43,346 nucleotides of DNA, from contig WFTQ01000022.1 of the NCBI GenBank assembly GCA_015485355.1, positions 1-43,346 on the forward strand, written 5' to 3'. Origin of the DNA: a bacterium. Its GTDB lineage: Bacteria; Calditrichota; Calditrichia; RBG-13-44-9; J042. Numbering within the stretch: position 1 is the first letter of the stretch; every line of letters begins with the position of its first letter. A program made the translations under genes and the position numbers. The notes under the pieces were generated by a model. That model saw nothing but the letters and a program-made list of their open reading frames with translations, was not told where the DNA came from and made no database searches. Below are positions 15,281 to 17,777 of this stretch, piece by piece.

Positions 15281-16834
15281 TCACGTCGCATAATCGTAAG
15301 CCCGGTATTCCCGGATCACGGACACGCGAATTTCCCAGGGGAATTCCATTTCTTCCTGAATTTTTTTGGCGATTTCCCGGGCGAGGGCTCGGGCACGATT
15401 ATCGTCCACCGTTTCGGTTTCTACGAATACCCGCACCTCCCGGCCGGCCTGGATGGCATAGGCTCGATCCACACCTTCAAAACGGGTGGCAATGCCTTCC
15501 AGTTGTTCCATACGTTGGATGAAATTTTCCAGCGTTTCTCGTCGGGCGCCGGGACGGCTGGCAGAAATCTGATCCGCGGCGGCCACCAACAGGGTGTAGA
15601 CGGAAGTCACCATCTTTTCATCATGATGGGCCTCGGCGGCGTTGACCACCACCTCGTGTTCATTGAATTTACGCAACAGATCCGCCCCCACCTGAGCATG
15701 ATCGGCTTCGGTATAGCTGTCCAGGGCCTTGCCAATATCGTGAAACAGGCCCGCCCGCTTGGCCAGATGCACTTCCAGGTCCAGTTCCGCCGCCATAATG
15801 CCGCATAAATAGGCCACTTCGATGCAGTGGTTCAACACATTCTGCCCATAAGAGGTTCGGTACTTCAATTTGCCCAGCAACTCCACCAGCTCCGGGGGAA
15901 CCCCGTGGACGCCTACTTCCAGCAGCGCCTGTTCTCCAATTTCACGAAGCGATTCTTTCATCTCTTGTTCGGTCTTTTCCACCACTTCTTCGATGCGTGC
16001 GGGATGGATGCGTCCATCGGCGATCAATTTTTCCATGGCCTGTCGGGCAATTTCCCGGCGATAGGAATTGAAAGACGACAGCACCACAATCTCGGGCGTG
16101 TCGTCAATAATCACATCCACCCCGGTAACCATCTCGAAGGAACGGATATTTCGGCCTTCCCGACCAATGATGCGTCCCTTCATATCATCGTTGGGGAGCG
16201 TGACCACGGACACCGTCGACTCCACCGATTGCTGCGCGGCCACCTGCTGAATGGCCTGAACCACAATCTCGCGGGCCTTGCGTTTGGCCTCCAGGCGTGT
16301 CTTTTCCAGAATATTTAAAGCAATGCGTTCGCCCTCTTCCCGGGCCTCTTCCTCCAGGTCTTTCAATAACAACGCCTTCGCTTCTTCCCGGGATAAGCCG
16401 GAAATCTCTTCCAGTTTATGAATTTGCTCCGCGATCAACTCATTCAATTCCTTTGTTTTGACCTTAATATAACGCTCTTTTTCTTGAAGCTCGTGCTGCA
16501 ATTTGCGCAAATCCCTTTCCCGTTTGTCCACTTGCTCGATGCGACGATCCACATCCAGCTCCCGCTGATCCAGGCGATGTTCCAGTTTATGCAATTCGGC
16601 CCGCTTCCGCTCCATCTCCCTTTCCAGCTGATGTTTCTGCTCGAACAGCTCTTCCTGAACCTCCAGCACCTTTTCCCGCTTTAAGTTCTCCGCCTCTTTG
16701 CGAGCATCTTCCAGAAGACGCTCCGCCTCTTGACGCGCATAAAGCAGAGATTTATTGGCGGTTATTTTCAGAAAAATTATTGTCCCAATGGCACCGAATA
16801 ACAGGCCGACCACGATACCAACAACCCATTCCAT
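15281..16834 (-). CDS. rny: Ribonuclease Y
   Basis: RNase Y is a membrane-bound endoribonuclease that starts mRNA decay. The 517-residue protein has an N-terminal membrane anchor (VVGIVVGLLFGAIGTIIFL), a long charged coiled coil to about residue 200, the KH domain (MKGRIIGREGRNIRSFE) and the HD domain with LFHDIGKALDSYTEADHA. It ends PWEIRVSVIREYRAYDYAT. All domains are in the standard order and the size is typical. GGAGGTGAG sits just before the ATG. It lies downstream of zapA and a 6S RNA gene and upstream of ymdB. Between rny and ymdB, a 7-bp hairpin GGGCGGA/TCCGCCC occurs near 15235-15260 without a T-run. Confidence 0.97.
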   Translation of the reverse strand: MEWVVGIVVGLLFGAIGTIIFLKITANKSLLYARQEAERLLEDARKEAENLKREKVLEVQEELFEQKHQLEREMERKRAELHKLEHRLDQRELDVDRRIEQVDKRERDLRKLQHELQEKERYIKVKTKELNELIAEQIHKLEEISGLSREEAKALLLKDLEEEAREEGERIALNILEKTRLEAKRKAREIVVQAIQQVAAQQSVESTVSVVTLPNDDMKGRIIGREGRNIRSFEMVTGVDVIIDDTPEIVVLSSFNSYRREIARQAMEKLIADGRIHPARIEEVVEKTEQEMKESLREIGEQALLEVGVHGVPPELVELLGKLKYRTSYGQNVLNHCIEVAYLCGIMAAELDLEVHLAKRAGLFHDIGKALDSYTEADHAQVGADLLRKFNEHEVVVNAAEAHHDEKMVTSVYTLLVAAADQISASRPGARRETLENFIQRMEQLEGIATRFEGVDRAYAIQAGREVRVFVETETVDDNRARALAREIAKKIQEEMEFPWEIRVSVIREYRAYDYAT

Positions 16835-16991
16835 TTCATCTCACCTCCGATTATCTGCACCATCTATTTTATTGGTTCGGGTAACGCAACCGCCCCCCGG
16901 GGCCGGTAGAACAACCCCGGATCAACACTCCGATGGGAAGCATCATTCCCTGTTCCGTTACCCTCTCCCCCAATTGCCATCATATAAAAAA

Positions 16992-17164
16992 CCCTGCATT
17001 GGTAGGATGGATTTGGAAAAGAACCGTGTTACACACGGTGGGTGCCTGCCTGAACGGTTCTTGCTTCCTTCGACTTACGAAGGCCTGCAATAGACGCCCA
17101 GAGTCAAGCTCCCTGTTTGTTGGTGTTGGTTCTTCCCAAATACAACACCCTAACCAATGCAGGG
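16992..17164 (-). ncRNA. ssrS: 6S RNA
   Basis: On the minus strand the transcript would begin CCCTGCATTGGTTAGG and end CCTACCAATGCAGGG, forming a 12-bp perfect closing stem plus a short extension. The 3' end is followed by TTTTTT. Inside, GGGAAGAACC near the 5' side can pair with GGTTCTTTTCC near the 3' side, leaving a large bubble. An apical hairpin CCTTCG/CGAAGG and a 3'-side hairpin ACCGTGT/ACACGGT are also present. This rod-with-bubble layout, the length of 173 bases and the location directly after zapA are hallmarks of 6S RNA, which binds sigma-70 RNA polymerase and templates short product RNAs. The 5' end is five bases after the zapA stop, so it may be processed from a zapA transcript. 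Confidence 0.85.
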
Positions 17165-17169
17165 CGATT

Positions 17170-17478
17170 TTATAACTCCAATACCTGCCCTACCGATCGA
17201 TCAATTTCCTGATTCAGTTGTCGACTTTCTTCCTCTACTTTTTGAACCAATTGATCATATTTTTCTTGCAAACGAAAGAATTCGTCCGCAATGTTCAGGG
17301 CTGTCAAAACAGCGATTTTGGTTTGCGATTTTACACTGGTCTTTTCAGAAAGTCGACGAAATTTCTCATCCACATACGCGGCAATGCTCTGTACGTATTC
17401 GCTACCGACGTCCGCCTTCAACGAATACTCCATCCCACCAATCTGCACTTTTATCGATCGTTTTTGCATTCCCGTCAT
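17170..17478 (-). CDS. zapA: Cell division protein ZapA
   Basis: ZapA binds and cross-links FtsZ protofilaments. This 102-residue protein has the N-terminal pattern SIKVQIGGMEYSLKADVG, then YVQSIAAYVDEKFRRLSE and TKIAVLTALNIADEFFRLQEKYD, followed by a C-terminal coiled coil (VQKVEEESRQLNQEID), as in the family. The start may be the ATG at 17478 or one three codons later; neither has a strong ribosome-binding site. It follows a coiled-coil protein gene by 17 bp and is followed by 6S RNA. The zapA-6S association is conserved in several bacterial phyla. Confidence 0.92.
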   Translation of the reverse strand: MTGMQKRSIKVQIGGMEYSLKADVGSEYVQSIAAYVDEKFRRLSEKTSVKSQTKIAVLTALNIADEFFRLQEKYDQLVQKVEEESRQLNQEIDRSVGQVLEL

Positions 17479-17495
17479 ACTTACTTATGTCATCA

Positions 17496-17777
17496 TCATT
17501 CAATTTCGTTTAACTTGACTGCCAGGCGTTCCAATTTGTTTTTAATTAGTTGCTCTCTCTCCTTCAGCGTTCGATTTTCTTTTTTAAGTCGTTTAACTTC
17601 GCTTTCCAGCACCGCAATACGTCTTCGATGCTCCTGTTCAGCGGCACCCGATTTGGCTTTCTCTAATTCATCCTTTAAACGTTGCTCCCTTTCCTGGAGT
17701 TCAACCATCTTTCGGATCAACCGTTGAATTCGATGACTTAAGCGAATAAAGTTTTGAAGTTCCTGTTCGACCGTCAT
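17496..17777 (-). CDS. Small coiled-coil protein between pheT and zapA
   Basis: This 93-residue protein is almost entirely predicted coiled coil, with repeated charged heptads (RKMVELQEREQRLKDELEKA, RRIAVLESEVKRLKKENRTL). It has no catalytic motif and no membrane segment. Size, composition and place directly before zapA suggest a ZapB-like or ZapA-partner division protein, but this is inference, since coiled coils give poor family signals. The ATG at 17777 begins nine bases after the pheT stop. The gene is complete and in operon with pheT and zapA. Confidence 0.75.
   Translation of the reverse strand: MTVEQELQNFIRLSHRIQRLIRKMVELQEREQRLKDELEKAKSGAAEQEHRRRIAVLESEVKRLKKENRTLKEREQLIKNKLERLAVKLNEIE

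Follow-up and report, generated by a model that had tools for sequence, protein, structure and literature searches.

A 6S RNA between zapA and rny in a Calditrichota bacterium, with a candidate E. coli-like release hairpin

The window (the whole 43,346-nucleotide stretch of DNA analyzed in this study) carries between zapA and rny an element that, judged by its sequence, is a genuine and ordinary 6S RNA, a member of a family already known. 6S is a small RNA that clamps RNA polymerase once cell growth stops. Taken as a whole, the element is very probably the single 6S RNA of this Calditrichota bacterium, binding polymerase and being released by way of a product RNA and a 3′ hairpin. The Rfam 6S model (RF00013) aligns over its full length (model positions 1–187 of 187) to the minus strand at 16987..17168, scoring 64.2 bits (E 1.5e-10) against a curated cut-off of 46.4 bits; both ends of the RNA are predicted, with nucleotide 1 at about 17168. 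A clade model, R1, built from 22 relatives, scores the same element at 177.9 bits. The minus strand of the element has a minimum free energy of −83.7 kcal/mol (z −7.23), a value reached by none of 200 shuffled sequences. No second 6S copy was found in the 3.44-Mb genome, and one tRNA is the sole other match in an Rfam scan of the window. The initial annotation had proposed a 6S RNA flanked by zapA and rny, to be checked by searching with Rfam 6S models, and both the family and the two neighbors are borne out. The interval it gave, 16992–17164, coincides with the closing stem, counted from its first C through its last G; it named no strand, which is minus, and all of the pairings it listed are literally present there.

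The class sample comprised 40 Calditrichota genomes, 23 of them of good quality. The clade model identifies one 6S RNA each in 37 genomes, including all 23 of good quality; the three without a match are 76–88% complete. With RF00013, 18 of the 40 genomes score over the cut-off; a further one (G017) falls short of it, at 40.5 bits in a small search, versus 118.9 bits for the clade model. The order pheT-zapA-6S-rny is kept throughout the class wherever contigs reach, which supports the 6S calls, as gene order is independent of the covariance model. Among the papers searched, none links 6S RNA to Calditrich or Ignavibacteri, and an earlier listing, for example in the 2014 “Dissemination of 6S RNA,” is possible. 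The gap between the two models agrees with the suspicion, raised from the sequence at the outset, that 6S RNA is poorly described in this phylum, and the RNA looks under-annotated in Calditrichota.

The rod characteristic of 6S RNAs, comprising a closing stem, a central bubble, and an apical arm, is backed by covariation. Among 35 distinct sequences, 94.3% of cells are paired and 22 of 37 pairs show two-sided changes, in an alignment fitted to the tested structure and hence biased in its favor. Shuffled controls average 13.6 such pairs, with 0 of 500 reaching 22. Sliding the pairing partners lowers pairing to 31–49%, and 16 of 30 pairs have two-sided changes in an initial alignment made without fitting; both results point in the same direction as the fitted alignment. 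The closing stem is formed on the minus strand by a 5′ arm, GCCCUGCAUUGGU (17153..17165), and a 3′ arm (16991..17003), both taken from the minimum free energy structure. It corresponds to helix 1 of the relatives, which is 91% paired with seven two-sided pairs. The apical arm (17040..17113, minus strand) corresponds to helices 3–5, in which 100%, 97.5%, and 88.6% of cells are paired and 11 pairs are changed on both sides.

The inner helix, P2, joins the 5′ strand GGGAAGAACC (17128..17137), which would also be the product-RNA template, to the 3′ strand GGUUCUUUUCC (17015..17025), both on the minus strand and both assigned from pairing probability and covariation. This central pairing, GGGAAGAACC/GGTTCTTTTCC (17137–17128 with 17025–17015), is real and covaries in relatives: helix 2 is 93.8% paired, with four two-sided pairs. 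The P2 sequence is GAAGAACC/GGUUCUUU in the window; many members of family f5 have AUAGGACC/GGUUCUAU, and one has UAAGGAUC/GAUUCUUA. The closing stem and central pairing had been described as clear, and both are found and covary. The same description treated the P2 pairing as the alternative fold, and here the assignment is reversed: with an ensemble probability of 0.91 in the window, P2 is the normal ground state, and the hairpins are the alternatives.

What follows on transcription, the binding and release of polymerase, and the start of the product RNA is carried over from known 6S RNAs. By this analogy, the rod with its open central bubble would mimic an open promoter and hold the housekeeping sigma–RNA polymerase as growth slows. 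When nutrients return, the polymerase would start at about position 17125 and transcribe the 5′ side of the bubble into a short product RNA with the predicted sequence 5′-GUUGGUUCUUCCC. The product RNA would unzip P2 and free its 3′ strand, which could then form a 7-bp 3′ hairpin, and polymerase would be released. In E. coli 6S RNA, product-RNA synthesis starts at U44 of GAGCC-GAU44. Aligning GAACC-AAC of the window with this motif places the putative start at template C 17125 (minus strand), nucleotide 44 of the RNA. The CAAC template is present in all 37 relatives, and the bubble motif CAACA is invariant at the predicted start.

The candidate release hairpin, ACCGUGU-gua.../ACACGGU, lies at 17023..17039 on the minus strand and was assigned by constrained folding and shuffling. 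It overlaps P2 by three bases. When nine template bases of the window RNA are blocked, the 7-bp 3′ hairpin is predicted to form on energetic grounds, and the same block applied to E. coli 6S RNA as a control returns its published 9-bp 3′ hairpin. The proposal that the inner helix and the 3′ hairpin are mutually exclusive holds. A 3′-type switch hairpin has already been described for E. coli 6S RNA (PMC8876501), and folding makes an E. coli-like switch plausible for the 3′ part of the originally proposed mechanism. The window hairpin beats shuffled sequences (p about 0.004). Of 10 members of the window's order tested by mononucleotide shuffles, 9 reach p < 0.05; the stricter dinucleotide shuffles, applied to a longer segment, leave 5 of 14. 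In three loci outside the 10-member test (L013, L016, and L022), the 3′ hairpin looks weak in ensemble folds. Families f4–f6 of the class give no signal (0 of 21), and covariation at the P2-fixed register was not detected within the order (p 0.26). Since the hairpin is not shared throughout the class and lacks covariation at that register, release may be independent of it.

It is a real possibility, if the less probable one in our judgment, that the element is a 6S RNA in which the product-RNA hybrid itself is the main driver of release, with the 3′ hairpin an accessory confined to this order and not the trigger. Beyond this order, most members of the class have no stable 3′ hairpin but still retain P2 and the start motif, and B. 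subtilis 6S-1 releases polymerase without the extended E. coli hairpin (PMC8876501). Against this, the 3′ hairpin of the window is worth about 10.8 kcal/mol when P2 is opened, and overlaps P2 in the E. coli manner. Release by product RNA together with the 3′ hairpin is the preferred reading for the window RNA.

A second Calditrichota model detects 6S RNA between zapA and rny also in Melioribacter and Ignavibacteria contigs, on which RF00013 finds nothing at E values up to 0.5. Across the Melioribacter class (Ignavibacteria), the second model matches in 30 of 41 genomes versus 2 for RF00013, one of them over the cut-off. Over its cut-off, the curated model thus detects 6S in under half of the Calditrichota set and in 1 of the 41 genomes sampled from the Melioribacter class, and a clade model combined with gene order recovers most of the 6S RNAs. 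The loci of the Ignavibacteria class (the class of G060; L132–L154, L128, L129, and L050) lie between zapA and rny, with pheT-zapA-6S-rny at all 25 loci checked and no other Rfam family over the 20 loci scanned. Two-sided changes occur in 28 of 37 pairs. In genomes of other phyla, two loci (L003 and L004) carry a 6S RNA over the Rfam cut-off between zapA and an rny-like ORF, indicating that the zapA-6S linkage is wider than two phyla. Because the zapA-6S neighborhood known from Proteobacteria is found in these phyla too, the linkage may be old.

In the Ignavibacteria class, the strand around P2 often folds into a hairpin wrapped around the P2 3′ strand or incorporating it. Its mean energy is −8.8 kcal/mol, versus −5.4 kcal/mol with swapped flanks, and 13 of 26 reach p < 0.05. 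Such hairpins, for example AGAUAGG...CCUAUCU, are seen in L132 (1501–1723), L134 (1501–1724), L147 (1501–1709), and their relatives. The geometry is unlike that of the 3′ hairpin of the window and of E. coli, and a P2-enclosing hairpin of this type was not seen in Calditrichota. Folding thus provides a lead that this hairpin might serve as a 6S switch. It is interesting to speculate, though we regard it as rather unlikely, that the release switch has been rebuilt between lineages at a shared locus: the window's order would have an E. coli-like 3′ hairpin, the other Calditrichota families little or no such hairpin, and Ignavibacteria a different one, wrapping or including the P2 3′ strand. As these groups differ in the hairpin adjacent to P2, the variety of 6S release mechanisms becomes testable.

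The initial annotation had both a 5′ and a 3′ hairpin form upon product-RNA synthesis and jointly drive release, a model that we consider highly improbable. The complementarity on which its 5′ half rested does exist: the 5′ arm GGUGUUG (17143..17149, minus strand) can pair with 17128–17122, and the perfect 7-bp pairing recurs in 7 of 14 order members, the window among those that have it. The release role does not stand. The perfect hairpin is absent from all 21 other class members, and folding of the window RNA and of 37 relatives gave the 5′ hairpin an ensemble probability of 0.00 in every case. In addition, its arm CAACACC holds the predicted product-RNA start, so that the product RNA and the 5′ hairpin are mutually exclusive. 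That the 5′ hairpin is more than a by-product of conserved sequence is not supported.

Upstream of the 6S RNA, zapA (17170..17478, minus strand; PF05164, 77.8 bits) ends 4 bases ahead of the closing stem, and is itself preceded by pheT and a short coiled-coil ORF. The latter encodes 93 residues (17496–17777, minus strand), and its match to ZapB is sub-threshold (21.2 bits versus a cut-off of 31.5). Downstream lies rny, encoding ribonuclease Y (15281..16834, minus strand; TIGR03319, 676 bits, cut-off 454). Across much of the window's order, the closing stem directly adjoins the stop codon of zapA, and comparison across the class revealed no common promoter motif ahead of 6S. It is therefore likely that the 6S RNA is made from a promoter inside zapA, or by processing of a pheT-zapA transcript. 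A search for a sigma-70 promoter upstream of the window 6S gave one weak match, the same number as in shuffled sequences. The genome's best RpoD-like sigma factor (G000:C28:15871-16578, L130) is a 284-residue open frame scoring 259 bits where the RpoD cut-off is 354; since it is short and under the cut-off, E. coli promoter rules may not apply in this phylum.

Directly after the closing stem is a terminator-like U tract (16986..16991, minus strand), so named from the T count in relatives: each of the 35 class members has 7 to 11 T among the 12 bases that follow the stem. The closing stem may double as the RNA's own terminator. We set aside as barely credible the idea that the zapA-rny gap holds no separate RNA, only a long-range terminator or leader: the U tract in 35 of 35 members and the upstream region without a conserved promoter would suit it, but neither a terminator nor a leader would preserve the complete 6S architecture and the bubble motifs, with covariation, in 35 species, or match RF00013 end to end, and termination at the closing stem can coexist with 6S function.

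The 6S RNA of the window invites comparison with characterized systems. It shares with E. coli 6S (ssrS, RF00013) the closing stem, central bubble, and apical arm, a position directly downstream of zapA, and the predicted response to a template block, which opens P2 and forms a 3′ hairpin. It differs from the E. coli RNA in that its 3′ hairpin has 7 bp rather than 9, with an overlap with P2 of only three bases; its downstream gene is rny and not fau; its closing stem runs into a U tract; and its product RNA is predicted to start with G, not A. The overall architecture is also that of B. subtilis 6S-1, and the product RNA is likewise predicted to begin with G, from a template C. The free form of B. 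subtilis 6S-1 already has a small 3′ bubble hairpin, and on release a central bubble collapse helix arises (PMC8876501); no collapse helix of this type was evident in the constrained folds made here. The zapB-zapA-ssrS order of beta- and gamma-proteobacteria (PMC7641849) resembles the window in having 6S immediately after zapA and, before it, a ZapB-like coiled-coil ORF. In contrast to that order, the window has pheT ahead and rny after, with no adjoining EVE or fau gene. Ms1 RNA of Actinobacteria is a rod with a bubble that is bound by RNA polymerase (PMC9130861). The window RNA has the same rod and bubble, and would bind polymerase as a member of the 6S family. Ms1, however, is a core-polymerase binder of another lineage, whereas the RNA of the window matches the 6S model itself.
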